The translations under genes and the position numbers were made by a program. From an uncultured Lachnospiraceae bacterium (GTDB lineage: Bacteria; Bacillota; Clostridia; Lachnospirales; Lachnospiraceae), in NCBI GenBank assembly GCA_902797185.1, contig CADBRV010000054.1, forward strand, positions 1 through 64,000: DNA of 64,000 bases. The letters run 5' to 3'. The notes below the pieces were generated by a model that saw nothing but the letters and a program-made list of their open reading frames with translations, searched no databases and was not told the DNA's origin. Of the stretch, positions 630-16,483 are shown piece after piece (the stretch's first letter is position 1; the number at the start of each line of letters is the position of its first letter).

Positions 630-1772
630 TTATCGGATCCCCATCCAGGAAGAGATCACCATCATCTGCACTTCTGATGTTCCTTCATAGATCTCTGTAA
701 TCTTTGCGTCACGCATCATCCTTTCAATCGGATATTCACTAGTGTATCCATATCCGCCAAAAAGCTGCAGGCATCTCCTTGTCACATCACTTGCATTACT
801 AGCGGCCATGAGTTTTGCTTCTGCAGCAAGGTGGGAATAAGGGATCCCCAAATCCTTTGCATTAGCAGCTTGATAGACAAGCAGCTTGACACCGTCTGTA
901 GCGGCTTGCATTTTTGCCATTTCAAACTGCGTATTCTGGAACTGGCTGATCCGCTTTCCGAATTGGATTCTTTGGGAAATATAATCTTTCGTCACAGCGA
1001 TGGCGCCTTCGGCGATACCCAAGGCCTGCGCCGCGATCCCAATCCGTCCCCCATCAAGGGTCATCATGGCCACTTTAAATCCCTTGTTTACCTCTCCTAA
1101 GAGATTTTCCTTCGGGACTTTCACGTCTTGAAAAATCAGTTCGCATGTGGATGAGCCTCGGATCCCCATCTTTTCTTCATGTTTTCCGAAAGAAAATCCC
1201 GGAAAACCTTTTTCCAGTATAAAAGCAGAGATCCCATGATTTCCCTTTGCCTTGCCTGTCATGGCAAAAACAACGTAAATATCCGCTTCCCCGCCATTTG
1301 TAATGAAGCATTTAGTCCCATTTAGCAGCCAATAGTCCCCCATATCCACTGCTGTAGACTGCTGGCCGGCAGCATCCGTTCCCGCGTTTGGTTCCGTAAG
1401 ACCGAATGCTCCCAGTTTTTCCCCAGATGCCAGCGGGACAAGATATTTCTCTTTCTGCTTTTCCGTACCAAAATGATAAATCGGCCATGCACACAAGGAA
1501 GTATGTGCGGAAAGCCCCACCCCTGTGGAAGCGCATACCTTGCTTATTTCTTCAACACATTGGGCATAAGACAGGTTATCCATCCCTGCCCCGCCATATT
1601 TTTCCGGAAACGGGATTCCTAGCAGGTCCATCTCAGCCATTTTTTCAAATGTTTCCCTGGGGAAACGGGATGCCTTATCGATTTCAGACGCAATCGGGCC
1701 ACATTCCTTTTCCGCAAAATCCCGGTAAAGCTCTACCAGGTCCGCATGCTCTTCATCCATAAAAAAATTCAT
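630..1772 (-). CDS. Acyl-CoA dehydrogenase (last gene of the catabolic operon)
   Basis: This 380-residue FAD flavoenzyme oxidises or reduces the alpha-beta bond of a short acyl-CoA and exchanges electrons with EtfAB. The sequence has full family length, the FGLTEPNAGTDA flavin/substrate motif near residue 125, and IYEGTSEVQ near the end, whose Glu is the usual catalytic base. Its ATG overlaps the etfA stop by one base (TAATG), so the two are translationally coupled. That linkage suggests it is the main Etf partner, in the style of butyryl-CoA dehydrogenase. Chain-length preference cannot be read from the sequence; butyryl-, propionyl- or isobutyryl-CoA are all possible. Confidence 0.93.
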   Translation of the reverse strand: MNFFMDEEHADLVELYRDFAEKECGPIASEIDKASRFPRETFEKMAEMDLLGIPFPEKYGGAGMDNLSYAQCVEEISKVCASTGVGLSAHTSLCAWPIYHFGTEKQKEKYLVPLASGEKLGAFGLTEPNAGTDAAGQQSTAVDMGDYWLLNGTKCFITNGGEADIYVVFAMTGKAKGNHGISAFILEKGFPGFSFGKHEEKMGIRGSSTCELIFQDVKVPKENLLGEVNKGFKVAMMTLDGGRIGIAAQALGIAEGAIAVTKDYISQRIQFGKRISQFQNTQFEMAKMQAATDGVKLLVYQAANAKDLGIPYSHLAAEAKLMAASNASDVTRRCLQLFGGYGYTSEYPIERMMRDAKITEIYEGTSEVQMMVISSWMGIR

Positions 1773-2782
1773 TATTCGCCTTTTTTCTTCCTTATTTCTT
1801 CTGTTAATGCCGGCAGGACTTTGAACAAATCCCCAACGATTCCATAGTCTGCTACCCGGAAAATATTTGCGTCTGGATCTTTGTTGATTGCCACAATGAC
1901 TTTTGAACCGCTCATGCCAGCAAGATGCTGGATTGCCCCCGAGATCCCACAGGCTATGTAGAGCTTTGGTGCAACAGTTTTACCGGTCTGCCCAACCTGG
2001 TGGGAATGTGCTATCCAGCCAGAGTCTACAGCAGCCCTGGACGCACCAACAACCCCGCCCAACACATCTGCGAGAGGTTTGATGACGGTCTCAAACCCTT
2101 CCGGTCCGCCAACACCGCGTCCACCGGAAACAATGATTTCAGCCCCTTCCAGGTCTACGATTTCCCCCGCTGCTTCCCGGATCACATCTATAATACGTGT
2201 GCGTATCTGGTCATTTGCTACATGGAATTCTTCCTTAATAATATCCGCATGGCTTTCACCAGCTTCCGGCTTTTTAAATACCCCGGGGCGTACGGTCCCA
2301 AATTGCGGGCGATGGTCCGGGCAAAGAATGGTGGCCATCAGGTTCCCTCCAAATGCCGGGCGGGTCCACGCGATATTACCGGATTCTTCATCGATATCAA
2401 CACTGGTACAGTCTGCAGTCAGACCAGTACCTACCTTGGCGGTAACCCTTGGAGCCAGGTCACGTCCAATATTGGTTGCACCAATCATTACTGTTGTAGG
2501 TGCATATTTCTCTACCAGGTAAACCATTGCAAGCTGGTAGGCATCTGTTGTATATTGCTGATATTCTGATCCTTCCACCACCAAGACTTGGTCTGCTCCA
2601 TATTTGGCAGCTTCTTCCACCGATTTCTGCACATTCTGCCCAATCACAACGGCAACCAGCCTGCCACCTTGTTTATCCGCAAGGATCCTCCCAGGATTCA
2701 GAAGCTCCAGGCCAACCTTTGCCGGACTCCCATCCTCCCGAGTCTCGATTAACACCCACAAATCCTTCGTCTTTGCTTCCAT
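1772..2782 (-). CDS. etfA: Electron transfer flavoprotein alpha subunit
   Basis: The protein is EtfA, the FAD-carrying subunit that pairs with EtfB to pass electrons to or from the acyl-CoA dehydrogenases. The C-terminal FAD domain is clear ([12 protein letters not shown] near 220, [11 protein letters not shown] near 260, then [21 protein letters not shown] split across the flavin site). The frame stays open upstream to 2824, but ATG 2782 has a GGAGGG six bases upstream and gives the usual N-terminus, so it is preferred (336 residues). It follows etfB by 42 bp. In Clostridia such Etf pairs are often electron-bifurcating with butyryl-CoA dehydrogenase; that is likely here but not shown. Confidence 0.95.
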
Positions 2783-2824
2783 ATATTCCCTCCACCATCT
2801 GTTTGGTCCTGAAAGTGCCTGCAA

Positions 2825-3634
2825 TCAAACGACTTTCTTTTCTCCCAGTAACGCAACAAGCTTTTTCGCGGATTCTTCCTCGGATTCTTCCTGGATGATC
2901 ACGCCTCCTGTTTTCTGCTCCGGTGTAAAAGTAGTCTTTACATGGGTTGGAGAACCTTTTAACCCTATTCTGGATGTATCAATATCCGGAAAGGCATCAT
3001 CACCCAGCACGGGGATATTGGCACGATTTGCTGCAAGTTTTCTCTTTATGGTCGGGAACCTTGGATCAAAGGAAGGTTTCGTAAAGGTGACAAGGCAGGG
3101 GAACTGGATACCGATTACCTGGTTGTAACCATCTCCTTCCTGTACTACCTCAAGCCCGCTCCCATCCGCATTTTTCTCGCAGGTCAATCCATAAGTCACC
3201 TGGGGAAGCCCGAGATGCTCTGCCAGTTCCGGCCCAACCTGCGCGGTATCGCCGTCAATTGCCTGCTTCCCACAGAAAATGGCATCAAATTTTCCTTCTG
3301 TTTCTTCCATTTTACGGACTGCCTGGGAAAGGATATAGGACGTGGCAAGCGTATCAGACCCTCCGAAGGTCCTCCCGGATACCAGGTAAGCTTTATCCGC
3401 TGCGATCGAAAGCGCTTCCTTTAATACGGCCGTCGCCTGCGGCGGACCCATCGTAACGACTACGATCTTGGTACCGGGATCTTTGTCTTTTAACCTTGCC
3501 GCGGCTTCAAGCGCAAACCCATCAAAAGGATTTAAAATAGACGGCACTCCTGCACGGACCAGCGTATGCTTTACCGGATCAATTTTGATTTCCGTTGTAT
3601 CCGGCACTTGTTTCACACAAACCAGAATATTCAT
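2825..3634 (-). CDS. etfB: Electron transfer flavoprotein beta subunit
   Basis: EtfB partner of EtfA. It starts MNILVCVKQVPDT, the usual EtfB opening, and carries NPFDGFALEAA, TFGGSDTLATSY and CGKQAIDGDTAQVGPE, the pattern of clostridial Etf that works with butyryl-CoA dehydrogenase. ATG 3634 has AGGAGG eight bases upstream and is chosen over the longer frame to 3667 (270 residues). The gap of about 200 bp to the upstream acyl-CoA dehydrogenase gene contains a copy of the double stem-loop repeat, the only large intercistronic insertion near the Etf genes. Confidence 0.95.
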   Translation of the reverse strand: MNILVCVKQVPDTTEIKIDPVKHTLVRAGVPSILNPFDGFALEAAARLKDKDPGTKIVVVTMGPPQATAVLKEALSIAADKAYLVSGRTFGGSDTLATSYILSQAVRKMEETEGKFDAIFCGKQAIDGDTAQVGPELAEHLGLPQVTYGLTCEKNADGSGLEVVQEGDGYNQVIGIQFPCLVTFTKPSFDPRFPTIKRKLAANRANIPVLGDDAFPDIDTSRIGLKGSPTHVKTTFTPEQKTGGVIIQEESEEESAKKLVALLGEKKVV

Positions 3635-3698
3635 CTGACACCTCCTATATTTCCAACATCCGATCATTCACTTCTCTTTACAATCACATCCTCGCGAA

Positions 3699-3788
3699 GG
3701 ACAAACGCCGATTCCAAATCGTCCTTTGGACGATGCGGCTAGTGCATCGCAAGGAATCCTCCCGCTACAGCGGGTCCCTCCTTACGAT
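3699..3788 (-). repeat. Double stem-loop intergenic repeat, copy A (short form)
   Basis: Read on the minus strand, the copy starts TATCGTAAGGAGGGACCCGC, folds into a nested stem with TCCTTGCGA, has a short linker, then a second stem GCCGCATCGTCC with GGACGAT and CGGC, and ends GTTTGTCC. It lies inside the operon between two genes. A fragment of a second copy (GGACAGGCGCCGCATTCC) follows at 3792-3809. Confidence 0.75.
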
Positions 3789-3836
3789 AAAGGACAGGCG
3801 CCGCATTCCAAAGGCGGGTCACGCCTTACGTTCTAT

Positions 3837-4985
3837 TTATGTATATTCTTTGATTACCTCTCTGGAAATGACGATTTTCTGGATTTCGGACGTTCCTTCA
3901 TAGATCCTCATGATCCTGGCATCCCGATACATCCTTTCAATAGGATAATCCTTCATATAGCCATATCCGCCGTGCAACTGTAACGAAAGGTCGCAGACAT
4001 ATCCTGCCGTTTCTGAACAGAAATACTTTGCCATTGCAGCATATTTCGTTACTTTTTCTCCCTTTTGGCGTTTATCCGCTGCCTCAAGCATCAGCATTTT
4101 AGCCGCTTCTATCCTTGTGCCCATATCTGCAATGTACCACTGGAGACCCTGGTTAGAACTGATCGGCTTGCCGAACTGGAGCCTTTGGTTCGCGTATTTT
4201 ACACCTTCTGAAAGCGCTGCTTCCGCAAGGCCGGTCGCCTGGGCGGCAATCCCGATCCTTCCCCCGTCAAGACCGATCATTGCGATCTTGAAGCCATCTC
4301 CTGGTTTCCCCAACACTTCTGCTTCTGGTACATAGACATTGTCCAGGATTACTTCCGATACCACAGCCCCTCTTAAGCCCATCTTGTCCTCGGTTTTCCC
4401 AACCTGGACGCCCGGCGTATCACGCCCAATCAGGAATGCCGTCATCCCGCCATGGGTTTTCTTTTCTGGATCTGTCAAGGCAATGATAATCAGATGATCC
4501 CCTTCCTCCGGCCCGAAATTTGAAATGAAAAGTTTAGAACCGTTCAGGATATATCCACCTTCTGTTTTTTCTGCCTTTGTTTTCAAACCGCCTGCGTCAG
4601 AACCGGCATTTGGCTCAGTTAAGCAGAAAGCCCCCAGTTTTCCTTCTACTGCGTTTGGCAGCCATTTTTGTTTCTGCTCTTCTGTCCCCATGCGGAGGAT
4701 GATGTCATTGGTAAGAAGATGGACTGCTACGATTTCTGCCGTACTTACGCAGCACTTGGAAATTTCCGAAATAACGATTGCTTTAGAAATTTCATCCAGG
4801 CCGCTTCCTCCGTACTCTTCCGGAATATTCAGCCCCATGATTCCCATCTCGGCCAATTCTTTGATGGTCTTTTCCGGAAAGCTCCCATTTTTATCCGTAT
4901 CCTGTGCAATCGGACGAATCTCTTTCTCTGAAAATTCCCTCACCATCTCTTGGATAGCGAGCTGATCCTCTGTAAATTCAAACAA
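3837..4985 (-). CDS. Acyl-CoA dehydrogenase
   Basis: Second acyl-CoA dehydrogenase of the operon, 382 residues and full length. It has FCLTEPNAGSDA near 130 and IYEGTSEIQ near the end with the catalytic Glu. The start is TTG at 4983-4985, preceded by AAGGA at about eight bases; no better ATG exists in frame. It resembles short-chain or butyryl-CoA dehydrogenases. It is separated from its neighbours on both sides by copies of the stem-loop repeat (3699-3788 and 5078-5243). Three such enzymes sharing one Etf suggest successive or alternative enoyl-CoA substrates. Confidence 0.92.
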   Translation of the reverse strand: MFEFTEDQLAIQEMVREFSEKEIRPIAQDTDKNGSFPEKTIKELAEMGIMGLNIPEEYGGSGLDEISKAIVISEISKCCVSTAEIVAVHLLTNDIILRMGTEEQKQKWLPNAVEGKLGAFCLTEPNAGSDAGGLKTKAEKTEGGYILNGSKLFISNFGPEEGDHLIIIALTDPEKKTHGGMTAFLIGRDTPGVQVGKTEDKMGLRGAVVSEVILDNVYVPEAEVLGKPGDGFKIAMIGLDGGRIGIAAQATGLAEAALSEGVKYANQRLQFGKPISSNQGLQWYIADMGTRIEAAKMLMLEAADKRQKGEKVTKYAAMAKYFCSETAGYVCDLSLQLHGGYGYMKDYPIERMYRDARIMRIYEGTSEIQKIVISREVIKEYT

Positions 4986-5077
4986 TTGGCCATCCTTCCT
5001 TTCCGTTTTTTAGGATCTCGCGGAGATCACTTTGGGCTTTTTTTCCAGTTTTCACGAATTGAAACTTCATGTATATA

Positions 5078-5243
5078 TCGTAAGAAAGGTCCCTACCAGC
5101 GAGAGGGTTCCTTGCGATGTACTAAGCCGCATCATCCGCCGTCTCGCCTGGCAAGGCGGTAACGCAGGCCTCGCCCTCATGCGAATCGTGATCTTTCATG
5201 GCGCGGCTCTCCTTCCGGACGATGCGGAATGCGGCGGCTGCCC
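5078..5243 (+). repeat. Double stem-loop intergenic repeat, copy B (long form)
   Basis: This copy runs against the direction of the operon, between the hydroxyacyl-CoA dehydrogenase and the acyl-CoA dehydrogenase genes. It begins TCGTAAGAAAG, has the linker TGTACTAAGCCGCATC, and carries the extra internal segment of the long form (CATGGCGCGGCTCTCC). It ends GCGGCGGCTGCCC nine bases from the stop of the neighbouring gene. Confidence 0.75.
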
Positions 5244-5251
5244 TTCCCCAT

Positions 5252-6106
5252 CTATGAATCGTAACGATAAAAACCTCTTCCCGCTTTCTTTCCAAGCCAT
5301 CCTGCTTTCACATACTGCCTTAAAAGAGGACACGGCCGATATTTACAATCCCCATACCCTTCATACATGGTCTCCATAATGGCTAAGACGGTATCCAGCC
5401 CAATAAAGTCTGCCAGTTTTAAAGGACCCATGGGATGGCGCATGCCAAGCTCCATTACCGCATCAATATCTTCTACGGAACCTACGCCTTCATATAAGCA
5501 GTAAATGGCTTCATTAATCATGACCTGGAGGACCCTGTTGGAAATAAATCCAGGGACATCCCTCACTTCGACCGGTGTTTTCCCTAATTCTAAGGAAGCA
5601 TTCTGCACAATACGGAATGTTTCGTCATCTGTTGCCAGTCCTCGGATTATCTCCACCAGCTTCATCACCGGAACCGGATTCATAAAATGCATCCCAATTA
5701 CTTTTTCCGGGCGCTTTGTTGCAGCGGCAATTTCCGTAATCGGAAGGGACGAGGTATTTGTCGCCAGGATACAGGAAGATTTGCAAATTTCATCCAGCTC
5801 TTTAAAAATGGCAGATTTAATTTCCATATTTTCCACCGCAGCTTCTACGACAAGGTCGCAGTCTGCAGCATCCTTTTTATCCGTGGAAGGGATAAGCCTT
5901 GATAAGATCCGGGCTTTTTCCTCTTCTGTAATCCTGCCTTTGCTGACGTCCTTGGACAGCAGCTTATCGATAAAGGCGATCCGCCGGTCGACAAATTCCT
6001 GTTTGACATCATTTAAATAAACAATCTTTCCGGCCTGGGCCATTACCTGGGCAATTCCTCCGCCCATCTGGCCTGAACCGATTACCATTACTTTGCTAAT
6101 GCTCAT
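5252..6106 (-). CDS. hbd: 3-hydroxyacyl-CoA (3-hydroxybutyryl-CoA) dehydrogenase
   Basis: NAD(P)-dependent reduction of acetoacetyl-CoA to 3-hydroxybutyryl-CoA, or the reverse. The 284-residue length fits the Hbd family. A Rossmann motif GSGQMGGG lies at 10-17, the catalytic His is H140 in [11 protein letters not shown], and the C-terminal domain has the [11 protein letters not shown] helix. It lies 24 bp after the thiolase stop, so the two are co-transcribed and probably act in sequence. Confidence 0.95.
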
Positions 6107-6130
6107 TTAAATACGCCCCCCTTCTTCTGA

Positions 6131-7327
6131 CTATTCCACTTCCACCAAAACAGCATCACCCTGTGCCATACCGGAACAGATCGCGGCAACGCCTGTCTTT
6201 TTGCCTTCCCTCTTCAGCTCATAAATTAATGTCATTAATATTCTCGCACCGGTAGAGCCAATCGGATGCCCAACAGCCACCGCGCCACCATTGACATTCA
6301 CTTTTGCGTCCATCTCGGAAGGGGTCATGCCAAGGATCCCTAAAGCGGAAACCAGGGGGACCGAAGCAAATGCCTCGTTAATTTCCATCAGGTCTACATC
6401 ATCGAGTGTCAGATGGTTTTTATTCAGGAGCTTTTGGATTGCCAGCCCCGGAACGGTCGCAATATATCTTGCGTCTCTTGCGACCTGGGAATAATCTTTC
6501 AATGTCGCGAGGACCGGAACTCCTAACTCCTCTGCTTTGTCCCGTGACATGATGACTACGGCAGAGGCCCCGTCATTTGTTCCAGGCGCATTTCCTGCGG
6601 TGATGGTATTGTCTTTTCCAAAAAGGACTGGAAGTTTTTCAAGGGCTTCCATGGTAGTGGAAGGCCTGGGCGGCTCATCAACCGTCACGGTCGTAACCTT
6701 CCCTTTTTTGCCTTCCACTTTGACCGGGAAACGTTCTTCATCGAATACATGGTTCTTCTCGCCGGCTTCCCAGCGCATCTGGCTCCGGTAGGCCCATTGG
6801 TCCTGCATTTGCCTCGTGATGCCATATTCCTTTGCCACATATCCCCCATGTGCGCCCATATGCACATCATATTGCGGGCACCACAAGCCGTCTAAAACCA
6901 TGCTGTCTTTCATAACCGCATCAAACATACGGTGTCCCCATCTCATGTCCTTTGCCAGGAAGGGTGCATTCGACATGCTTTCCATCCCGCCTGCGACAAT
7001 AACGTCTGCATCTCCTGCCTTTATGATCTGGGCTCCAAGCGTGACCGCTTTTAACGCAGACCCGCAGACCTTATTAATCGTAAATGCAGGGACTTCTACC
7101 GGTATTCCTGCATTTTCCGCTGCCTGCCTGGCAGGGACCTGTCCCTGTCCTGCCGCGATGACAGTGCCATAGATCACTTCATCTACCTGGCCGCCCGTAA
7201 TCCCGGCCCTTTTCAAAGCTTCCGCTATGGCCATACCGCCTAATTGGGGAGCCGTTAACGGGGACAGCACTCCTCCGAGCTTGCCATAGGGTGTACGGGC
7301 ACCACTAACAATCACTACCTCTTTCAT
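6131..7327 (-). CDS. Acetyl-CoA C-acetyltransferase (thiolase)
   Basis: Thiolase of 398 residues that condenses two acetyl-CoA or cleaves acetoacetyl-CoA. The nucleophile is C88 in NKVCGSALKAV. GGAVAVGHPIGSTGAR carries the active-site His, and ICSGMAQGDA near the end carries the second Cys. Length and motifs fit the biosynthetic/degradative AtoB-Thl group. Together with hbd, the crotonase and the dehydrogenase-Etf set it would complete a butyrate module, or in reverse a C4 oxidation module. Confidence 0.95.
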   Translation of the reverse strand: MKEVVIVSGARTPYGKLGGVLSPLTAPQLGGMAIAEALKRAGITGGQVDEVIYGTVIAAGQGQVPARQAAENAGIPVEVPAFTINKVCGSALKAVTLGAQIIKAGDADVIVAGGMESMSNAPFLAKDMRWGHRMFDAVMKDSMVLDGLWCPQYDVHMGAHGGYVAKEYGITRQMQDQWAYRSQMRWEAGEKNHVFDEERFPVKVEGKKGKVTTVTVDEPPRPSTTMEALEKLPVLFGKDNTITAGNAPGTNDGASAVVIMSRDKAEELGVPVLATLKDYSQVARDARYIATVPGLAIQKLLNKNHLTLDDVDLMEINEAFASVPLVSALGILGMTPSEMDAKVNVNGGAVAVGHPIGSTGARILMTLIYELKREGKKTGVAAICSGMAQGDAVLVEVE

Positions 7328-7423
7328 TATTTCCTACCTTCTCCCAATTCAACCAGGCAATGACACAGCCTTATCTACGCAGATCCCTGCGTCATCCCCT
7401 GCCTTTCTCTGCCAGAATGCACT

Positions 7424-7536
7424 CCTTGCCGGCCTTCCCCAGTCTTCCAATTCCGGATCCCGCTCTCGCTCCACCTGGATGGCGGACACAGGGACGACCC
7501 TTGCCGATCTTCATCGGTCTTCAAATTTCGGATCCC
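7424..7536. repeat. Duplicated tail of the crotonase gene
   Basis: Positions 7424-7461 and 7499-7536 match at 31 of 38 bases, offset by 75 bp. The right-hand copy contains the end of the crotonase reading frame and its stop; the left-hand copy is non-coding. The rest of the thiolase-crotonase gap (7328-7510) holds no gene. Confidence 0.65.
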
Positions 7537-8293
7537 TCTTCTCCAAAAATGCATTCATTCCCTCTTTTTTGTCATATGTCCCGGAGATGACGCCAAACAG
7601 TGCCGATTCATACTGTGATGCTTCTGTTTCGCCCATTTCAGAGCCATAATCCACCGCACGCTTGATGAAATTAAGGACGGTAGCGCTCTTACATGTTAAA
7701 AGTTCGCTATACTGGAAAACTTCCTCCATCAATTTTTCCTGCGGCACTACTTTCGAAACCAGCCCGATCCGGCATGCTTCTTCAGCGTCTACCATCCTTC
7801 CCGTCATCAAGATATCTTTTGCATAAGCTTTCCCGACAATCCTCGGAAGCCGGATATTTCCACCAAACCCGCAGCATACCCCCAGTTTTGATTCCGGTGC
7901 CCCGAACTTTGCATTATCCGAGCAGAACCGGAAGTCACAAGCCAGGGCGAATTCAATGCCTCCCCCAAGGCAGTATCCGTTTACCGCTGCAATCACTGGT
8001 TTGGGGCTTTTTTCCAAGGTAGAGCAGAAATGATGGCCCGCACGGCTCCACTCAAAGGAGGCCAGCCCATCCATCTGCATCTCTACTCCAATATCTCCGC
8101 CAGATACAAATGCTTTCTTCCCGGCACCAGTCAAAATAATCACCCTCACATTCGGATCTGCAATCATATCTTCCGCTGCCTTCTGAAGGAAGTTTAATGT
8201 ATCCCAATCAATCGCATTTAATACTTTAGGACGGTTAATGGTAATAATGCCTTTCTTGTCCTTGATTTCCGTAATGACTGTTCCCTGTTCCAT
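7511..8293 (-). CDS. Enoyl-CoA hydratase/isomerase family (crotonase) protein
   Basis: This 260-residue crotonase-fold protein has the oxyanion-hole stretch GGGIEFALACDF near 105 and FGAPESKLGVCCGFGGN carrying the first catalytic Glu. At the place of the second catalytic Glu of rat crotonase (in AMEMVLTG) it has Asp (AKDILMTG). It could hydrate crotonyl-CoA, but with that change another lyase or isomerase reaction is possible. It sits directly after the 4-hydroxybutyryl-CoA dehydratase homologue (stop 8294, start 8293), which suggests that they share an intermediate such as crotonyl-CoA. Confidence 0.88.
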   Translation of the reverse strand: MEQGTVITEIKDKKGIITINRPKVLNAIDWDTLNFLQKAAEDMIADPNVRVIILTGAGKKAFVSGGDIGVEMQMDGLASFEWSRAGHHFCSTLEKSPKPVIAAVNGYCLGGGIEFALACDFRFCSDNAKFGAPESKLGVCCGFGGNIRLPRIVGKAYAKDILMTGRMVDAEEACRIGLVSKVVPQEKLMEEVFQYSELLTCKSATVLNFIKRAVDYGSEMGETEASQYESALFGVISGTYDKKEGMNAFLEKRDPKFEDR

Positions 8294-9754
8294 CTATTTT
8301 TCTTCCTTTACCTTTGCAAGCTTTTTGGCCAGCTCTTTCTTTTCTTCAAACTGTCCCTGCCTGGTGATCATAATTTTCTGTGCCTGCGGCGATCCTGCTC
8401 CATGGAGGGATTCGGTCAGATATCCTACTGCCGATGTCCCGAGGGCAAGGTTTTCACAAAGCCTTAAAACACGAAGCCTGTCTTCCGCGTCCACATTATG
8501 GCCTACCAGGTACTTCTCGATATATTTACCGATATCTTTGCTCCTTAAGTCCGCTTCGGAAGGAGCCGTGACCATAATGCCACCGGCGATATCTTCCATT
8601 AACCGAATAATCTCAAAGGGGTACCGGGTAACATTTAATTTGCAGACATTTGCAAGCAGGAGATCCACCATATAGTTTCCGGCTTCCGTCTTCCATCCTT
8701 CTGTCCCGGATGCAATCCCGCACGCATAAAGCTGCTCATTGAGCTGCGTCATTTCCACCAGCTTGTCCTTTACATGGTTTGCCTTTTCAATGCCGTTATA
8801 CTCCGCCATCAAACTGGCTGCCCCAATTACGACGTCTCCCACACCGCTCTTACAGCCACCGTAACTATTTCTATGTCCGCCGGCAAAAAGCTCTACCAGC
8901 ATGCCTGCAAAATCCACTTCCCCATTCAAAAACAGGTTCTCTTTCGGAACAAAAACATGGTCGAAAACAACCATTGCCTCAACTCCGCCAAACCGGGTAT
9001 TTCCCGGGTCAATGTCTGCAAAAGCCTCCATTTTCCTTGTATCGCAGCTCTGCCTTCCAATAATCATGGTGATTCCGGGCGCATCCAGCGGAAGATGGAA
9101 ACCGACCGCATAATCTTCCTGTCCGGGACGCATAGCCTGTGTAGGAAGTACTACGACTTCATGGGCATTTGTAATGCCTGTCAAATGACACTTTGCGCCA
9201 TTTACAACCACGCCGTCAGGACGCCTTTCCACTACATGGAGATATAAGTCCGGGTCCTGCTGGTCGGAACCAATCTTGACCCCCCTGTCCCCTTTCGGGT
9301 CTGTCAAGGCACCCGCTATCACCAGGTCCTCATCCTGTACACGGATCATGAATTTTTTGAATCTTTCAAAATAATTCGTCCCGTATTTCTGGTCAATTTT
9401 ATAAGTGGTAGGATAAAGGGCGTTCGCCATATCTGTAATGACACAGCGCTGGAAACAGCTTCCTGTCACCCTCCCCATCAGCCTCTGCATTTTCGTTTTT
9501 TTATTCAGGTCTTCTGTGCTGTTGTAAATATGGTTAAAACGGTTGATCTTATGCCCCGTCAGTTGGGAAGTAGCCGTCATGATATCTTCATACTGCGGAT
9601 CCAATGCCAATTCATATGTTTTTTCCAGGCACTTCCTGGACGGGATGAGAAGCGGATGATGGATCGGGTCTTCGATTTTTTCTCCCTGGAACCAGATATT
9701 CCGTTTCATTGCCGCCAGCGAATCAACGTATTCCTGCACTGTCTTTAATGCCAT
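8294..9754 (-). CDS. abfD: 4-hydroxybutyryl-CoA dehydratase / vinylacetyl-CoA isomerase homologue
   Basis: This 486-residue flavoprotein of the 4-hydroxybutyryl-CoA dehydratase family has the four ligands known to bind the [4Fe-4S] cluster in the clostridial enzyme: C100 and C104 (SCFQRC), H294 and C301 (GGHRNSYGGC). The known reaction is the radical dehydration of 4-hydroxybutyryl-CoA to crotonyl-CoA, with vinylacetyl-CoA isomerisation. The acyl-CoA dehydrogenase-like fold is consistent (HLTGITNAHE near 190). No 4-hydroxybutyrate dehydrogenase or dedicated 4-hydroxybutyrate CoA-transferase is nearby, so the substrate in this operon may differ. Family assignment is strong, exact substrate open. 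Confidence 0.9.
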   Translation of the reverse strand: MALKTVQEYVDSLAAMKRNIWFQGEKIEDPIHHPLLIPSRKCLEKTYELALDPQYEDIMTATSQLTGHKINRFNHIYNSTEDLNKKTKMQRLMGRVTGSCFQRCVITDMANALYPTTYKIDQKYGTNYFERFKKFMIRVQDEDLVIAGALTDPKGDRGVKIGSDQQDPDLYLHVVERRPDGVVVNGAKCHLTGITNAHEVVVLPTQAMRPGQEDYAVGFHLPLDAPGITMIIGRQSCDTRKMEAFADIDPGNTRFGGVEAMVVFDHVFVPKENLFLNGEVDFAGMLVELFAGGHRNSYGGCKSGVGDVVIGAASLMAEYNGIEKANHVKDKLVEMTQLNEQLYACGIASGTEGWKTEAGNYMVDLLLANVCKLNVTRYPFEIIRLMEDIAGGIMVTAPSEADLRSKDIGKYIEKYLVGHNVDAEDRLRVLRLCENLALGTSAVGYLTESLHGAGSPQAQKIMITRQGQFEEKKELAKKLAKVKEEK

Positions 9755-9771
9755 GTCTAATACCTCCCTTC

Positions 9772-10908
9772 CTATTTCAGGCCAAGCGACCTGGCGATAA
9801 CCATCTTCTGGATGGCATTGGCGCCTTCATAGATCTGTGTGATTTTGGCGTCACGCATCATCCTCTCTACCGGATACTCCCTCGTATATCCATATCCTCC
9901 GTGATACTGGACACATTCTGTCGTCGTTTCCATCGCGGTATCGGATGCGTAAAGCTTCGCCATAGCAGCCTCGGTGCTAAATGCCTTTCCTTCATCTTTC
10001 AAACCTGCCGCACGCCAAATCAGCAGCCTGGCCGCGTCAACCTTTGTCTGCAGATAGGCAAGGCCGAACTGGACATCCTGGAACTGGGAAAGCCTTTTTC
10101 CAAACTGCTCCCTTTCTTTGACATATTCATATGTCACGTCCAATGCGCCTTGCGCAATTCCGACTGCCTGCGTACCCATACAGATCCTCCCGGTATCCAG
10201 CGATGTAAGGGCGACTTTCATTCCCTTTCCAACTTCTCCGAGTACCTGGCTGTCCGGTACAAAACAATTATCCAGGATAATTTCAGCTGTCAGCGAGCCA
10301 TGAATCCCCATCTTATGGATCTCCCGGCCAACAGAAAAGCCTTTTGCGTCTTTATCAACGATAAAGGCCGTGAATTCTTTTTTCCCTTTTTCATTCATTC
10401 CGGTGACAGCGACAATAATGTTAAAATCATTCGCCGGAGCGCTGGAAATAAACATTTTCGCCCCATTCAGGACATAGCCTCCATCTACCTTCACGGCTTT
10501 GGTCGCCATGCCATTGGAATCTGAACCTGCATTCGCCTCTGTCATGGCGAATCCCATCAAATGTCCTTGCACGGTAAGTGGAAGATACTTCGCTTTCTGT
10601 TCTTCTGTGCCGAACTGGCTTACACATGCCATCGCAACCGTGTGGGTGGAAATAATGCTGGACGTGGCACCGCATACCTTTGCTACTTCTTCGTTTGCCA
10701 AGATAAATGAGAGAAAGTCTGTCCCTGCGCCTCCATATTCTTCCGGAAGCCAACATCCCAGGATTCCTGCATCTGCTAATTCTTCGATATTCGCAGTCGG
10801 GAATTCCTCCTTCTCATCATAATCAGCTGCCCTGTCCTTGAAGCTTTTCTGTGCGAGGTCCCTTGCCAGGTCACGGATCATGACCTGGTCTTCTGTCAGC
10901 TGAAACAT
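9772..10908 (-). CDS. Acyl-CoA dehydrogenase
   Basis: Third acyl-CoA dehydrogenase, 378 residues. It has [14 protein letters not shown] near 125 and IYEGANAIQ near the end with the catalytic Glu; the ANAIQ variant differs from the TSE(V/I)Q of its two paralogues. The ATG is 128 bp downstream of the dihydropyrimidinase stop, across a strong hairpin (10979-11015). It is the dehydrogenase closest to the ring-opening genes, so it may act on the first enoyl-CoA of the pathway. Substrate unknown. Confidence 0.92.
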
Positions 10909-10978
10909 ATCCTTGCCTCCTTAAAATCTATCGTCTGCTCTTCCTTAAAAAATTTACCGGAAGTTTTTTTCTTATTAT

Positions 10979-11015
10979 CTATCCGGCAAAGCCCTAAAAA
11001 TGCTTTGCCGGATAG
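10979..11015 (-). other. Intercistronic hairpin between dihydropyrimidinase and acyl-CoA dehydrogenase genes
   Basis: CTATCCGGCAAAG at 10979-10991 pairs perfectly with 11003-11015 over 13 bp with an 11-base loop. No T-run follows on the coding strand, so it is not a typical terminator. It could stabilise or define processed mRNA segments, or cause partial attenuation. Confidence 0.55.
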
Positions 11016-11036
11016 GGGCATCGAAACCCTCTTGAG

Positions 11037-12440
11037 TTAGAGAAGAGGTCCATTGAAACTTAACTTATGGCATCTAACCAGCCTGCCCTGCCCACGGCCG
11101 CCAAGGAACTCCCCATCCTTAAATACAAGGTTCCCTCTGCTATACGTAGCAACCGGGTAGCCCTTTAAATGGAGCCCTTCCCAAATTGTATGGTCCGTAG
11201 CGCCATGCATGGCACTATTTGTAACAGTAAAATCTTTTTCCGGATCATAGATCACAATATCGGCATCCAATCCTACCCGGATGGCGCCCTTTTGATCATC
11301 CAGTCCAAATAATTTAGACGGGTTAGTAGAACAAAGTTCCACTACCCTTGAGAAAGAAATCCTTCCCTGGTTTGCTTCCGAAAGCATATATGGGTACATA
11401 TTTTCGATACCCGCGCATCCATTTGGAATCGTCGTAAAGTTTCCAGGCGTGCCATCTTTCTTGGTGATTCCCCAATCTTTTTCTGCTTTCGAGAACGGGC
11501 AGTGATCCGTTGCGACAACCGTAATATTGCCATTTTTCACGCCGCCCCAGATCGCATCTTGTGAAGCCTGGTTCTTCATTGGCGGGGAACAGACAAAATC
11601 CCTTCCTCTTTCCCTCTTGTACACTTCACTGGTAAAATGCAGGTATTGCGGGCATGTTTCAGCAAAAATCGGATATCCTTCATTTCTGGCTTCTGTTACT
11701 GCCTTCATCCCCATCTCATCTGCTAAATGGGCGATATATAAAGGAGCACCAGCCATTTTTGCAAGGTTCACGGCACGGACATCTGCCTCTCCCTCGACCA
11801 TTTCGTTTTTGGCCATGTAATGCCACCAGGCATCCGTTTTCCCTTCGGACAGGTATTTTTCAATCAGGACGTTATTGACATATTTATTTTCCGCATGTAC
11901 TCCGACAATTGCCCCGATCTCCCTTGCTTTCAGAAGGACCTTATAGAAAGAGCCGTCATCTACGCCGTAATCATAAACCATGAATACTTTAAAGGAGGGG
12001 ATCCCATAATCCACACACTCCTGCATGGATTCAATCATTCCTTCTGTAATGACATCGCTTACCGCCAGATGGAAAGAATAATCAATCGCACAGTCTTTTG
12101 ATGCAATGGCATCCCTGCGTTTGATTGCATCCAGCATATTCTCGGCATGTGCCTGGTTTACAAAATCAAAAACGGTCGTCGTGCCACCACACGCAGCAGA
12201 CCTGGTTCCTGTGTAATAATCATCTGATGAAATGGTTCCACCAAATTCCAGGAAAAGATGGGTATGGCCATCAATCGCTCCAGGAAGGACAAGCTTTCCT
12301 TCTGCATCCACTACTTCGTCAAACCCTGCCGGGTCCATATTCTGCTGGATCCTGAATATTTTTCCCTTGTCAACAGCAACATCTGCCTGATACATTTCTT
12401 TTGCTGTCACAATGGTTCCATTTTTAATTAATAAATCCAT
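11037..12440 (-). CDS. hydA: Dihydropyrimidinase (hydantoinase family cyclic amidohydrolase)
   Basis: Opens the ring of dihydrouracil, dihydrothymine or hydantoins to the N-carbamoyl amino acid. The 467 residues show the metal-binding DGHTHL near 57, a Lys for carbamylation in PSFKVFMVYD near 150, GVHAEN near 180, the IAHLA His near 237, and the catalytic ATDHCPF near 313. Length and motif order are those of D-hydantoinase/dihydropyrimidinase rather than allantoinase or dihydroorotase. It follows preT-preA in the operon, the order expected for reductive pyrimidine breakdown. A hydantoin as substrate is the main alternative. Confidence 0.93.
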   Translation of the reverse strand: MDLLIKNGTIVTAKEMYQADVAVDKGKIFRIQQNMDPAGFDEVVDAEGKLVLPGAIDGHTHLFLEFGGTISSDDYYTGTRSAACGGTTTVFDFVNQAHAENMLDAIKRRDAIASKDCAIDYSFHLAVSDVITEGMIESMQECVDYGIPSFKVFMVYDYGVDDGSFYKVLLKAREIGAIVGVHAENKYVNNVLIEKYLSEGKTDAWWHYMAKNEMVEGEADVRAVNLAKMAGAPLYIAHLADEMGMKAVTEARNEGYPIFAETCPQYLHFTSEVYKRERGRDFVCSPPMKNQASQDAIWGGVKNGNITVVATDHCPFSKAEKDWGITKKDGTPGNFTTIPNGCAGIENMYPYMLSEANQGRISFSRVVELCSTNPSKLFGLDDQKGAIRVGLDADIVIYDPEKDFTVTNSAMHGATDHTIWEGLHLKGYPVATYSRGNLVFKDGEFLGGRGQGRLVRCHKLSFNGPLL

Positions 12441-12481
12441 CTTGTACCTCCTTTCTCATAAAACGGGATTCGGAAAACAAG

Positions 12482-13747
12482 TTAATCAAAATTCTTTTTA
12501 TACACGATTTTTTCCGGTTTCGCGCCTTCATCAAATACCACTTCTCCAGGAGTGATACAATTGATGACCGGGCAGACCTTCTGGCACAGATGGCAGCCTA
12601 CACAGTTTTCTTCAATTAACTGCGGCCTGCGTTCCTCATCCAGCCATTTAATTGCCTGATGTCCGCCGTCGTAACACGAAACATAGCACCTTCCACATCC
12701 AATGCACTTGTCATGGTTAAATGCCGGATGGATTTTGAATGTCCTGGTAAACTGCGATGGAGAAACGATATTCGGCAGGGCCTTTCCAATAAAGTCGTCC
12801 AGCTTTTCAAATCCCTTTTCGTCCATCCAATACGAAAGGCCGGAAGTAATGTCATCAATGATCCTGTATCCATATTCCATAATCGAAGTACATACCTGGA
12901 TATTCGTTGCCCCAAGGAGCAGGTAGTCCACAGCATCTTCCCATGTATAGACGCCTCCAATACTGGAAATCGGGAAATCCTTAAGCCCGGGATTCTGTTT
13001 CATCTCACAAAGGAAACGAAGGCTTATAGGCTTTACGGCGCGTCCGGAAAGACCGGAAATCGCTGATTTTCCATTCACGACAGGTTCTGTTGTAAACAAG
13101 TCTTTATCCAAATCAATGATGGATTTTACCGTATTGATGGCAGACACTCCATCTGCCCCGCCGTTTTTTGCTGCCAAGGCCGATGGCACCATATTGGTGA
13201 TATTGGGCGTCATCTTGGTAATAACCTTAAGGCCGCTCCTTGCTGCCTTTTTTGCAACCCTGGTATACTGTTCCACCAGTGCCGGATTACACCCCACATC
13301 AGCTCCCATGTTGTCGCGTCCCATATGCGGACAGGACATATTTAATTCGACACCATCGATGCCTGCCTGTGCCACGCTCACTACCAGGTTGGTCCAATCC
13401 TCATCGCTTCCGCCCATGATCGTCGCGAAAATCCTGTGCTCCGGATAATGCTCTTTCAACCTGCGCATATAATCCAGGTTCTGTTCCATGGAGTTTTGGG
13501 AAGCGTGCTCACAGTTTTTAAACATCCCCCAGGACCTTCCGACATCTCCTTCCTCTACCCCGAAGATCGGGGAAATCTCATGTTCCGGAACAGAATCCTG
13601 GTTCTTGTAAAATACGCCGCCCCATCCTGCTTCGAACGCCTTTGAAATCATGTCGTAGTTATTCCCAACAGGAGAAGAAGCAAGGAAAAATGGGTTTAAG
13701 CATTTCACTCCTGCAAAATCAACAGATAAATCTTTCTTAAATGCCAT
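12482..13747 (-). CDS. preA: NAD-dependent dihydropyrimidine dehydrogenase, catalytic subunit
   Basis: FMN protein of the dihydroorotate dehydrogenase fold with a C-terminal ferredoxin domain. CIGCGRCYVSC near 343 and CVGCHLCQKVCPV near 378 bind two [4Fe-4S] clusters. The core has NMSCPHMGRDNMGADVGC near 165-185, KMTPNI and AINTVKS. With PreT it reduces uracil or thymine. ATG 13747 (GGGAG nine bases upstream, four bases after the preT stop) is chosen over the longer frame to 13840; 421 residues. The arrangement and sequence closely match E. coli PreA as I recall it. Confidence 0.94.
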   Translation of the reverse strand: MAFKKDLSVDFAGVKCLNPFFLASSPVGNNYDMISKAFEAGWGGVFYKNQDSVPEHEISPIFGVEEGDVGRSWGMFKNCEHASQNSMEQNLDYMRRLKEHYPEHRIFATIMGGSDEDWTNLVVSVAQAGIDGVELNMSCPHMGRDNMGADVGCNPALVEQYTRVAKKAARSGLKVITKMTPNITNMVPSALAAKNGGADGVSAINTVKSIIDLDKDLFTTEPVVNGKSAISGLSGRAVKPISLRFLCEMKQNPGLKDFPISSIGGVYTWEDAVDYLLLGATNIQVCTSIMEYGYRIIDDITSGLSYWMDEKGFEKLDDFIGKALPNIVSPSQFTRTFKIHPAFNHDKCIGCGRCYVSCYDGGHQAIKWLDEERRPQLIEENCVGCHLCQKVCPVINCITPGEVVFDEGAKPEKIVYKKNFD

Positions 13748-13751
13748 CTTC

Positions 13752-15011
13752 TCAGACTCCCTTCTTTTCCAAATAAGCGATGATCTCGGCCGCTGTAAGC
13801 TTTGCATCCGCAACTGCCTGGACGACTGTCTGTCCTCCATTTACAACATCTCCTGCCGCAAATACTTTTCCGCTTACAAAGCCATTCTCCTGCGCTTCAA
13901 TTGTGCCTTTCCCGCTGATCGGGAGGTCATCCAGAATATCTAATTTCTCTGCTTTCTGTCCAGTTGCAAAAACAAGCGTATCCGCACTGAGCGTCATCTT
14001 CGCTTCTTTATCCCTGAAACCAGCAGCCTCTACGATCTCAAGCTTTCCATTTCCTTTTGCGCTGACCGGATAGAAGCCCGTTGTAATGCCTACTCCAAGG
14101 GAAAGGGCATATTTCAGTTCATCCATATCAGCCGGCGCTTCTTCAATCGTACGCCTGTACATGATCCGCACATCTTCCGCTCCGAGAAGCTTTGCGGTAG
14201 TGGCACAGTCAACCGCCACGTCTCCCAAACCTACGACAATGACCGTTTTTCCCGCATGGAAGGCTTCTTTTTCCGTTCCTGCCTTTTTCAGATAATCCAC
14301 TGCGGAATAGACGCCCGGCAGGCCTGCCCCCTCGATCGAAGGAATTTTGGCATCCCAAAGGCCAGTGCCGACAAAAACAGCATCAAAGGGCTCCAGGTCT
14401 TCTCTTTTTACTTCATGTCCGAAAACGAACTGTACCCCGAGGTCCGCGATCAGCTGGATGTCATGGTCCACCACTTTCTGCGGCAGCCTGGACGGTACAA
14501 TGCCATAGGAAGCCATGCCGCCGGCCCTTTGTTCCCTTTCGAAAATAGTTACGCTGTAACCGGCTTTCGCAAGTTCCCTTGCACAGGTCAAAGATGCCGG
14601 ACCTGCGCCAATACATGCTACTTTTCCTTCTTTTTTCTCAGCAGGGGCTTTCACCACATGCATTTTAAAAGCTTCTTCCTGCTCGATCAGGAAACTCTGA
14701 ATTTTTCCGATACGGATCGGTTTATCAATCCCTGTCATAGAGCAAGCTCCCTGGCAGAGCTGGTCATATGGACAGACCTTTGCGCAGATCCCGCCAAGAG
14801 GGTTGTTTTCCCGGATGGTTTCTATCCCGCCCTTTACATTTCGAAACTTTAAAGCACGGATAAACCTTGCAGGATCTGTCCCGGCCGGGCATGCCTTGCT
14901 GCATGGCGCGTCATAACAAACAAGGCATCTGTTCGCTTCATCAAGAGCAGTCCTCAAGTTAAAGGGGCGCTCCGCTTCCTCCATGTACCCTTTTAATTCA
15001 ACTTTACTCAT
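13752..15011 (-). CDS. preT: NAD-dependent dihydropyrimidine dehydrogenase, flavoprotein subunit
   Basis: This 419-residue protein resembles the glutamate synthase small subunit. An N-terminal double [4Fe-4S] domain (CLVCYDAPCSKACPAG near 29-43, then CAKVCPYDQLCQGAC near 76) is followed by an FAD motif (GAGPASLTCARELA near 135) and an NAD(P) motif (GLGDVAVDCA near 258). It takes electrons from NAD(P)H and passes them to PreA. Its stop lies four bases before the preA start, as expected for subunits of one complex. Confidence 0.94.
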   Translation of the reverse strand: MSKVELKGYMEEAERPFNLRTALDEANRCLVCYDAPCSKACPAGTDPARFIRALKFRNVKGGIETIRENNPLGGICAKVCPYDQLCQGACSMTGIDKPIRIGKIQSFLIEQEEAFKMHVVKAPAEKKEGKVACIGAGPASLTCARELAKAGYSVTIFEREQRAGGMASYGIVPSRLPQKVVDHDIQLIADLGVQFVFGHEVKREDLEPFDAVFVGTGLWDAKIPSIEGAGLPGVYSAVDYLKKAGTEKEAFHAGKTVIVVGLGDVAVDCATTAKLLGAEDVRIMYRRTIEEAPADMDELKYALSLGVGITTGFYPVSAKGNGKLEIVEAAGFRDKEAKMTLSADTLVFATGQKAEKLDILDDLPISGKGTIEAQENGFVSGKVFAAGDVVNGGQTVVQAVADAKLTAAEIIAYLEKKGV

Positions 15012-15047
15012 TCGTTTTTCCTCATAATGCCTTTCGCAAGATATCGT

Positions 15048-15123
15048 GGCAGGATCACAGGATCCTGCCCAATATCTTTCCTGCTTCCTGCATCAGGCAA
15101 AATCTCTGCCGGATGCAGGAAGC
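15048..15123 (-). other. Two intercistronic hairpins between ygeY and preT
   Basis: GGCAGGATC (15048-15056) pairs with 15061-15069 over a 4-base loop. GCTTCCTGCATC (15083-15094) pairs with 15112-15123. Both stems are perfect and lack a T-run on the coding strand. They lie in the 137-bp gap between the ygeY stop and the preT start and could split or stabilise the long operon transcript. Confidence 0.5.
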
Positions 15124-15148
15124 GGACTCCATTTTCCGGAAACCTTTA

Positions 15149-16483
15149 TTAGAACTCAAGTTTCTTGAAATCTTCCTTGTCCAGCTGGGATGCTTCCAGG
15201 TAAATTGCCGCATTTCCAGCCATAGCCTTTTCAATTGCATCGATCCTGCACTTGTCATACGGGGTATGCGCATACAGTTCCTGCATGCCGGAATAACCGA
15301 TGGTCGGTTTCTTGTAATATCCTGCTGTCACAGCACAGTCTGTCGCAAAAGACCAGTATCCATACTGTACCGGCTGGCCTACATCCTCGAGCGCCCTTGC
15401 GCATGCCTGGGTAAACGGATGGTCTTTCTTGATTTTCCAGCCTTCGGTAAATTTATATCCGCTCATGACTTCGCCGGTGTAACAATGGTCCACATCCGGT
15501 TTCATCTCAACCGTTGCCTTAAACTCCGGATCTTCTGCCGCACACTCGTCGATCACTTTCTGCAGGATCTCCATCGCGCTCTCAACAGTCTCTCCCATCA
15601 TCGTCCTGCGGTCGAAGGACATCATGCACTTGTCCGGGACAATAGACAGCGCTCCCGGTGAGCACTCGATAATATTAAGGGAAATGGAAGCCTGCTCCAG
15701 CTCCCCCTCCGGATCCTTCGGAAGGTTCGGGATGACGTCATCACGGATCTTCTGGATAACCGGCAATGCCTTGTAAATTGCATTGATCCCATTCTGGGGG
15801 CAGCTTCCGTGGGCCGTCCTGCCATATGTGGTAAGAAGGTATTCAATCCTTCCCCTATGGCCAAGGTACAGCTTCAAACTGGTTGCCTCTGAGGAAACCA
15901 TGGCATCAAAATCCCATCCCTTTTCCGGGAAAGTATGCTTGATCATGTTGCGGGTTCCGGCATTCTGGCCGGATTCTTCATGTACCACTCCGGTATACAT
16001 GAAATTACCTTTGATTTTGTATCCCATTTCGCGCAGCTTCAGAAGGATTGCCCCAGCATAAATCTGGAAGCCATGCCCGCTCTTTACATCCGATGCTGCC
16101 CTTCCATGGATACATTCCGCCTTTTCTGTCTTTGTGTTGTCATCCAGGCACGCAACATCACAAACATCGATCTGGCCTCCATAAGGGTCATAGCCCTGCC
16201 AGTTATTCGGGTCGCCCGGATCTACGTGGTCCATGTGCGAGTTATACATGATCGTAGGACCAGGCTCATCGCCTTTGATAATTCCGATTACATTCCCATA
16301 CTTATCCCTGTAAACTTCGTCATATCCGAGCTTCTCCAGCTCAGCGATTACGACATTTGCCATATTCTCTTCTGTGCCGCTTACAGACGGCGTCTGGATC
16401 ATCTTCTGAATGAATTTTACGCAATCGTCTTTCATTTCCGCTGCAAGCTGGTTTACCAGTTTATAGGTTTTCTCGTCATACAT
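15149..16483 (-). CDS. ygeY: YgeY-type M20 family metallohydrolase
   Basis: This 444-residue M20 amidohydrolase/peptidase has a metal-site YNSHMDHVDPGD near 81, HGRAASDVKSGHG near 132, and HEESGQNAGT near 170 with the catalytic Glu pair. It matches the YgeY group often found beside hydantoinase and selenium-linked purine genes. M20 members also include N-carbamoyl amino acid amidohydrolases, so its likely task here is to remove the carbamoyl group from the ring-opened product. No other beta-ureidopropionase is present in the operon. The role is inferred from context. Confidence 0.88.
   Translation of the reverse strand: MYDEKTYKLVNQLAAEMKDDCVKFIQKMIQTPSVSGTEENMANVVIAELEKLGYDEVYRDKYGNVIGIIKGDEPGPTIMYNSHMDHVDPGDPNNWQGYDPYGGQIDVCDVACLDDNTKTEKAECIHGRAASDVKSGHGFQIYAGAILLKLREMGYKIKGNFMYTGVVHEESGQNAGTRNMIKHTFPEKGWDFDAMVSSEATSLKLYLGHRGRIEYLLTTYGRTAHGSCPQNGINAIYKALPVIQKIRDDVIPNLPKDPEGELEQASISLNIIECSPGALSIVPDKCMMSFDRRTMMGETVESAMEILQKVIDECAAEDPEFKATVEMKPDVDHCYTGEVMSGYKFTEGWKIKKDHPFTQACARALEDVGQPVQYGYWSFATDCAVTAGYYKKPTIGYSGMQELYAHTPYDKCRIDAIEKAMAGNAAIYLEASQLDKEDFKKLEF

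Follow-up and report, generated by a model that had tools for sequence, protein, structure and literature searches.

A member of a derived subclade of the 4-hydroxybutyryl-CoA dehydratase family encoded together with reductive pyrimidine genes in a Lachnospiraceae operon

The protein encoded at positions 8294-9754 of the 64 000-nucleotide stretch of uncultured Lachnospiraceae DNA analysed here (the window, whose first position is also that of contig C54) is, as judged from its sequence and phylogeny, a member of a rare, long-stemmed and derived subclade of 4-hydroxybutyryl-CoA dehydratase (AbfD). We use the name AbfD2 for this subclade, which comprises the window protein and those of ten further loci. 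The gene lies in an operon that joins a pyrimidine module (MerR, CaiB, NCS1, M20, PreT, PreA and HydA) to a second module built around AbfD2 (ACAD1, AbfD2, ECH2, thiolase, HBD, ACAD2 and EtfBA). Our current working hypothesis, which we consider about as probable as all other readings together, is that AbfD2 would eliminate the gamma group of a 4-substituted butyryl-CoA, in all likelihood 4-hydroxybutyryl-CoA, to give crotonyl-CoA, and that the two modules share the operon and are paired by redox. We infer these reactions from sequences, phylogeny, gene contexts and missing genes, which were obtained directly.

Sixteen genes run in the same direction on the minus strand, from ECH1 (19635-20480) to ACAD3 (630-1772). 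The neighbours were assigned to families by NCBIfam, Pfam and PDB matches, which are often below curated cut-offs. In the order of transcription of the operon, the features are as follows.

20998-21888, plus strand: MerR-family regulator, divergently oriented; all 12 CaiB stretches fetched have a homologue close to CaiB
19635-20480, minus strand: ECH1, crotonase-family protein and candidate ammonia-lyase, with GGGMN in place of the expected GGG-x-E
18338-19519, minus strand: CaiB/BaiF-type CoA-transferase, whose relatives adjoin beta-alanyl-CoA ammonia-lyase-type proteins
16719-18341, minus strand: NCS1 transporter
15149-16483, minus strand: M20 (YgeY-like) hydrolase, probable N-carbamoyl-beta-amino acid amidohydrolase
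13752-15011, minus strand: PreT-like NAD(P)-binding subunit
12482-13840, minus strand: PreA, dihydropyrimidine dehydrogenase subunit, above the NF006183 cut-off
11037-12440, minus strand: HydA, dihydropyrimidinase/D-hydantoinase, above the TIGR02033 cut-off
10979-11015, minus strand: perfect 14-bp hairpin, not followed by T residues in a run on the sense strand, in the HydA/ACAD1 gap that forms the module junction
9772-10908, minus strand: ACAD1, acyl-CoA dehydrogenase, 17 bp upstream of AbfD2 and 69-80% identical to its counterpart in loci L004, L006, L011 and L013
8294-9754, minus strand: AbfD2, 4-hydroxybutyryl-CoA dehydratase-family protein of 486 amino acids (PDB phmmer, ligand alignment, tree)
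7511-8293, minus strand: ECH2, enoyl-CoA hydratase with intact GGGIE and FGAPE motifs
6131-7327, minus strand: thiolase, above the NF006086 (acetyl-CoA C-acetyltransferase) cut-off
5252-6106, minus strand: 3-hydroxybutyryl-CoA dehydrogenase (HBD), above the NF004474 cut-off
3837-4985, minus strand: ACAD2, acyl-CoA dehydrogenase of the AbfD2 module
2825-3667, minus strand: EtfB, 87% identical to the partial EtfB of AbfD2 locus L013 and 43-45% to the EtfB of pyrimidine loci L184-L188 and L192
1772-2824, minus strand: EtfA
630-1772, minus strand: ACAD3, acyl-CoA dehydrogenase, the final gene of the operon
404-484, minus strand: intrinsic-terminator-like hairpin at the operon end (14-bp outer stem followed by ATTTTTT; -32.5 kcal/mol)

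The operon appears complete, since the terminator-like hairpin lies below ACAD3 and, apart from a short convergent frame at 1-189, no reading frame of any length runs out through the contig end. A cut operon with an AbfT gene hidden past the contig edge was ruled out by the same hairpin. The GC content is 0.39-0.51 with strong negative GC skew over positions 1-22000 (0.46-0.51 over 1-20000), and beyond 22 kb it is mostly 0.49-0.57 with weak skew; given this contrast, the operon region is possibly acquired DNA.

The AbfD2 reading frame starts with ATG behind a good ribosome-binding site and contains no internal stop. When compared with the PDB by phmmer, the protein matched 1u8v, a dehydratase/isomerase of GABA metabolism that we take to be AbfD of Clostridium aminobutyricum, at 646 bits, and 6vjr, a vinylacetyl-CoA delta-isomerase, at 538 bits, with oxygenase members of the HpaB family scoring at most 155 bits; identity over aligned columns is 60.2% to 1u8v and 51.6% to 6vjr. 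The four [4Fe-4S] ligands that the initial annotation had read from the sequence (C100, C104, H294 and C301) all align with the AbfD ligands Cys99, Cys103, His292 and Cys299. Also conserved are Gln101, Thr190, Glu257, Tyr296, Lys300, Glu455 and Ala460, which we take to be catalytic positions of AbfD, and ligands and presumed catalytic residues alike are invariant in all 11 AbfD2 and all 21 ordinary AbfD sequences. Amino-acid-changing divergence from three relatives amounts to 0.13-0.16 per site with silent sites saturated, which fits purifying selection on AbfD2. The gene thus is, on this evidence, real and intact, and we read its product as a genuine radical lyase with [4Fe-4S] cluster and FAD that belongs to the 4-hydroxybutyryl-CoA dehydratase family; the earlier description of an intact homologue agrees with the 646-bit match and the uninterrupted frame, and the suggestion that its radical chemistry is plausible gains from the retention of the whole presumed machinery.

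A pattern scan of one genome per species (84 980 species), which relied on exact eight-residue words, so that members will be missed, returned 34 loci, 10 of them at 71-82% and 24 at 30-37% identity to the window protein. The ten close loci come from MAGs or genomes labelled Lachnospiraceae, Oscillospiraceae, Christensenellaceae, Eubacterium, Pseudoflavonifractor and Firmicutes. A class-wide search found matches in 21 of 391 genomes including our own, the remaining 20 being at 50-65% and none closer; both this sample and the 344 genomes of the order used below were even draws and partial sets. The window protein and the ten loci form a single clade (FastTree 1.000; IQ-TREE UFBoot 100) on a stem of 0.42, within which the window protein is the longest tip (0.21). 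FastTree places AbfD2 as the sister group of ordinary clostridial AbfD. The IQ-TREE maximum-likelihood tree nests it in AbfD with L107, L109 and L110 as nearest sister (support 81), deeper nodes that exclude the 1u8v lineage having support of 98-100 and weaker intervening nodes 42-59.

More distant relatives were also seen. Same-genus genomes (L043-L052) carry one or two copies of a 32-36% AbfD/HpaB paralogue in which the four cluster ligands, Tyr296 and Lys300 are kept, Glu455 is changed to Ala and Thr190 to Ser; an HpaB_N fragment cut by the contig edge in our own genome (C32:1-279, L067) is possibly its copy. The 34-35% relatives of Candidatus Binatia and related MAGs (L015-L020, L029) have all three cluster cysteines replaced and so are probably not cluster enzymes.

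Several substitutions are fixed or nearly fixed in AbfD2. Gly105, immediately after the second ligand, is replaced by Ile or Met, Gln189, adjoining Thr190, by Leu or Ile, and Gln294, near His292, by Asn; others include Met149 to Leu and Ser195 to Ala. A change of Tyr291 to Gly, adjoining His292, is common to the window protein, L008 and L011. Changes beside ligands and catalytic residues, together with the loss of Tyr291, suggest a changed or larger substrate.

The gene partners of AbfD2 differ from those of ordinary AbfD. Among 21 ordinary loci with context (about 9 kb; L157 spans only 3.6 kb), a sigma-54-type regulator is found in 13, AbfT in 16, AbfH in 9 and SucD in 6, at least one of the four in every locus, and an acyl-CoA dehydrogenase directly upstream in none. 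Among the ten AbfD2 loci, none has the sigma-54-type regulator, AbfH or SucD, and an acyl-CoA dehydrogenase lies directly upstream in at least seven (gaps of 14-125 bp), a nitroreductase-type gene downstream in at least six and an AbfT-like transferase in at least three, these counts being lower bounds because the L005, L009 and L010 stretches are truncated or of limited length. L004, L006, L011 and L013 share the block ACAD1-AbfD2-ECH2 with the window; in the last three it continues into thiolase and HBD, and in L011 and L013 further into ACAD2 and the AbfT-like CoA-transferase, which is missing from the window operon. Upstream partners vary: a CaiB-like transferase, an old-yellow-enzyme-type reductase and a metallo-beta-lactamase fold in L013, aldehyde dehydrogenase, MaoC-type and CaiB-like proteins in L006 and L011, 2-hydroxyacyl-CoA dehydratase genes in L007 and three further acyl-CoA dehydrogenases in L008. 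In another AbfD lineage (L158 and L159, 50-52%) the gene is followed directly by thiolase, HBD and enoyl-CoA hydratase, with ACAD and EtfBA also present in L158. No pyrimidine genes occur in the AbfD2 neighbourhoods of the relatives, which suggests that the AbfD2 substrate is generally not ring-derived. At the level of whole genomes, co-occurrence was not seen for M20, of which none of the ten AbfD2 genomes has a relative above 37% identity; PreA, at 47-53%, is present in two of them, away from AbfD2.

It might be supposed that the window protein is an ordinary AbfD supplied with 4-hydroxybutyryl-CoA from 4-hydroxybutyrate by CoA-transferases encoded elsewhere in the genome, its neighbours being coincidental. 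Like C. aminobutyricum AbfD (1u8v), to which it is 60% identical, it keeps the ligands and presumed catalytic residues and has crotonyl-CoA-using genes downstream, and in the maximum-likelihood tree it is nested among clostridial AbfD. The genome (98.97% complete, 136 contigs) also holds two PF13336 CoA-transferases, one above the butyryl-CoA:acetate transferase cut-off (C50) and one 37-40% identical to AbfT-type proteins (C25). Nevertheless, AbfD2 differs from the C. aminobutyricum system in lacking AbfH, SucD and the sigma-54 partner, in the acyl-CoA dehydrogenase directly upstream, in the changed residues beside catalytic sites and in its distinct, long-stemmed clade, and our searches of the genome turned up no close homologue of AbfH or SucD. 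None of its Fe-ADHs (eight places) exceeds 32% identity to the AbfH proteins from ordinary AbfD loci, which are 40-45% identical to one another, and the stretches with aldehyde dehydrogenases (four places) and related genes gave no SucD match at E<=1e-8; the negative result for 4-hydroxybutyrate dehydrogenase covers AbfH-type and SucD-type homologues. Three class III aminotransferases are present, so a GABA transaminase is possible. We regard an ordinary AbfD with coincidental neighbours as distinctly unlikely. Of the outcome that the initial annotation had set against a different substrate, placement within standard AbfD is what the maximum-likelihood tree gives, but no canonical AbfH/SucD route was found in the genome.

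The claim that no gene in the window forms 4-hydroxybutyrate holds: the apparently complete operon contains none, AbfT, AbfH and SucD are lacking from it, and a tblastn search of the window for AbfT or nitroreductase gene remnants gave a best value of only E 0.17. That no gene was found for making 4-hydroxybutyrate, nor a gene in the operon for activating it specifically, casts some doubt on 4-hydroxybutyryl-CoA as the substrate.

The pyrimidine half of the operon is best understood from the relatives of its CaiB. When searched against the 344 genomes of the order, the window CaiB had 33 matches besides its own, 11 at 56-61% and 22 at 41-47% identity, and we examined 13 of these loci, namely the whole close group of 11 (ten as 20-kb stretches, one as a short locus) and two from the group of 22. 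Every one of the 13 has an Acl-type protein next to CaiB or close by. The Acl-type proteins tested match 3-aminobutyryl-CoA ammonia-lyase models below the cut-off, and the sole PDB match of the one compared with that database is beta-alanyl-CoA:ammonia lyase 2 (4mtu, E 2.8e-15). The ten close stretches carry a HydA homologue in every case (32-64% identity), a HyuC-type carbamoylase in nine, ACAD-EtfB-EtfA in six, NCS1 in five and PreT and/or PreA in five. Reductive pyrimidine genes accompany CaiB, an Acl-type ammonia-lyase and ACAD-EtfBA in L184-L188 and L192, with a nitroreductase-type gene in L184-L188 and the lyase domain fused ahead of CaiB in L192; CaiB, HydA, PreT/PreA, NCS1 and MerR are common to these loci and the window, except that L192 has no NCS1 match. 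The ACAD of L184, the one tested, scores 684 bits against an acryloyl-CoA reductase (AcrC) cut-off of 640. Fermentation of beta-alanine of the Clostridium propionicum type uses a CoA-transferase, beta-alanyl-CoA ammonia-lyase (4mtu) and acryloyl-CoA reductase AcrCBA. The relatives of the window CaiB resemble it in their adjoining Acl-type lyases and, in L184, in the ACAD above the AcrC cut-off, and these CaiB-Acl operons read as a putative route from pyrimidine through beta-alanine, beta-alanyl-CoA and acryloyl-CoA to propionyl-CoA. The window differs from the C. propionicum type on both counts. No Acl match at E<=1e-4 was found in it, nor in the remainder of the approximately 200 kb of its own genome, window included, that the check spanned, and its three acyl-CoA dehydrogenases score 440, 520 and 497 bits, all below the AcrC cut-off. 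HyuC was likewise not found in the window.

Clostridial reductive pyrimidine cassettes (L101-L105 and C112 of our own genome) also have PreA and HydA in common with the window, and L101-L105 have M20; the window M20 is 57-60% identical to the M20 of ABC-transporter-type pyrimidine cassettes. Unlike the window operon, L101 and C112 pair these genes with a class III aminotransferase, Fe-ADH and ABC transporters rather than with CoA-ester genes. The C112 cassette appears complete (class III aminotransferase, Fe-ADH, ABC transporter, HydA, PreA and HyuC), so ordinary use of uracil probably does not depend on the pyrimidine set of the window.

If an ammonia-lyase is required here, ECH1 is the first candidate, since it adjoins CaiB where the relatives have Acl, and we consider it the likeliest stand-in. 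It has Asn at what we take to be the first catalytic Glu of crotonases (the GGG-x-E position), keeps the second Glu, and has 3-hydroxypropionyl-CoA dehydratase as its closest solved structure; no relative at E<=1e-65 was found in the other 390 of the 391 sampled genomes of the class. The pairing of CaiB with an Acl-type lyase in 13 of 13 loci and its lack in the window could mean that AbfD2 itself deaminates beta-alanyl-CoA or 3-aminoisobutyryl-CoA. We think this very improbable: beta-elimination adjacent to the thioester does not need a radical enzyme, yet AbfD2 has kept all its radical-site residues, and ECH1, next to CaiB and with the structural affinity just noted, offers a simpler lyase; an Acl may also be encoded elsewhere in the genome. 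Uracil feeding AbfD2 directly through beta-alanine is retained solely as this low-probability rival.

In our preferred reading, that of two modules paired by redox, AbfD2 would remove the C4 leaving group of a 4-substituted butyryl-CoA, yielding crotonyl-CoA, and 4-hydroxybutyryl-CoA would enter separately, from 4-hydroxybutyrate that is imported or made by an unrecognized enzyme. Crotonyl-CoA as the product of gamma-elimination is what the ACAD1-AbfD2-ECH2-thiolase-HBD block points to, and C4 chemistry is supported by the thiolase and HBD scores above curated family cut-offs. ECH2, HBD and thiolase would then convert crotonyl-CoA to two acetyl-CoA with one NADH, ACAD2 or ACAD3 with EtfBA could reduce crotonyl-CoA to butyryl-CoA, and ACAD1 might reduce a 4-substituted crotonyl-CoA ahead of AbfD2. 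On the pyrimidine side, NCS1 would import the ring, PreTA reduce it, HydA open it and M20 decarbamoylate the product; the beta-amino acid would be converted to its CoA ester by CaiB and deaminated, with ECH1 as stand-in, and the resulting ester reduced with the acyl-CoA dehydrogenases and EtfBA, which both modules would share. One module could supply NADH and reduced Etf, and the other the acceptors for them, uracil and acryloyl-CoA, although such a redox pairing instead of a shared intermediate is conjecture. The occurrence of the AbfD2 module alone elsewhere, and the likeness of the pyrimidine module to the CaiB/Acl operons, argue for separate histories of the two.

The same genes may be arranged as one linear pathway. 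A substituted pyrimidine or hydantoin would be converted to a C4 beta-amino acid with a gamma leaving group and activated by CaiB; ECH1 would remove the beta-amino group, ACAD1 reduce the enoyl-CoA, and AbfD2 form crotonyl-CoA. Sixteen genes in one operon closed by a terminator-like hairpin are in keeping with this, as is the C112 cassette, through which the window set may be left with a different substrate, and a single pathway fits better than two parallel ones the finding that Acl and an AcrC-grade reductase are missing with the AbfD2 module in their place. CaiB, ECH1 and ACAD1 are, at the family level, the same kind of set as the carnitine genes, which take carnitine through crotonobetainyl-CoA and gamma-butyrobetainyl-CoA to crotonyl-CoA. 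A precedent for gamma-elimination of an amine from an acyl-CoA is given by BbuA of the gut anaerobe Emergencia timonensis, a gamma-butyrobetainyl-CoA TMA-lyase; this flavoenzyme of the acyl-CoA dehydrogenase type is about 10% identical to 4HBD, and the authors of the work stress both its analogy with 4-hydroxybutyryl-CoA dehydratase and the very low sequence identity (PMC8364193). As in the pathway proposed here, CoA-transferase activation is followed by gamma-elimination to crotonyl-CoA, and the carnitine route ending in BbuA indicates that the linear order of steps can occur; ring-opening genes, present in the window operon, are absent from bbu. The NCBIfam models gave no sign that ACAD1 is a homologue of BbuA.

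Against the linear pathway, we identified no common natural ring compound that fits, and the AbfD2 relatives work without ring genes. On paper, thymine, orotate, imides, ectoine and nicotinate-type rings gave no obvious 4-substituted butyryl-CoA. The missing Acl and AcrC and the altered residues keep the pathway in consideration, and the want of a suitable ring compound leads us to hold it unlikely. Correspondingly doubtful, if slightly less so, is the broader proposal that AbfD2 is a substrate-changed dehydratase, performing gamma-elimination on a ring-derived C4 acyl-CoA (for example 4-amino- or otherwise 4-substituted butyryl-CoA) formed via PreTA, HydA, M20, CaiB, ECH1 and ACAD1, so that a cyclic ureide would be fermented through crotonyl-CoA. 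The suggestion in the initial annotation that the substrate is a CoA ester made from the opened ring is upheld in part: a CaiB group paired with Acl in the loci examined lacks that partner in the window, but the evidence from the AbfD2 relatives (pyrimidine genes in no neighbourhood, M20 in none of ten genomes, PreA in two) and the simpler candidacy of ECH1 count against it.

Among the papers searched, none links 4-hydroxybutyryl-CoA dehydratase with uracil or beta-alanyl-CoA with dihydropyrimidine dehydrogenase, and none combines dihydropyrimidinase, beta-alanine, ammonia lyase, propionate and uracil; a paper on acrylic acid in yeast mentions beta-alanyl-CoA, uracil and acryloyl-CoA.

4-Hydroxybutyryl-CoA dehydratase catalyses a demanding radical reaction at a carbon that is not activated, and we know of just one natural substrate for it. 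The presence in gut bacteria of AbfD2, with intact chemistry, altered cluster-side residues and entirely different gene partners, suggests roles for the family in further pathways. Related genomes contain an apparent operon type for the use of pyrimidines via beta-alanyl-CoA and acryloyl-CoA, of which the window would be a version that has lost the ammonia-lyase. Should the substrate prove to be ring-derived, AbfD2 would be, to our knowledge, the first enzyme of the family with a natural substrate besides 4-hydroxybutyryl-CoA, and the operon would encode a new route of anaerobic ring breakdown.
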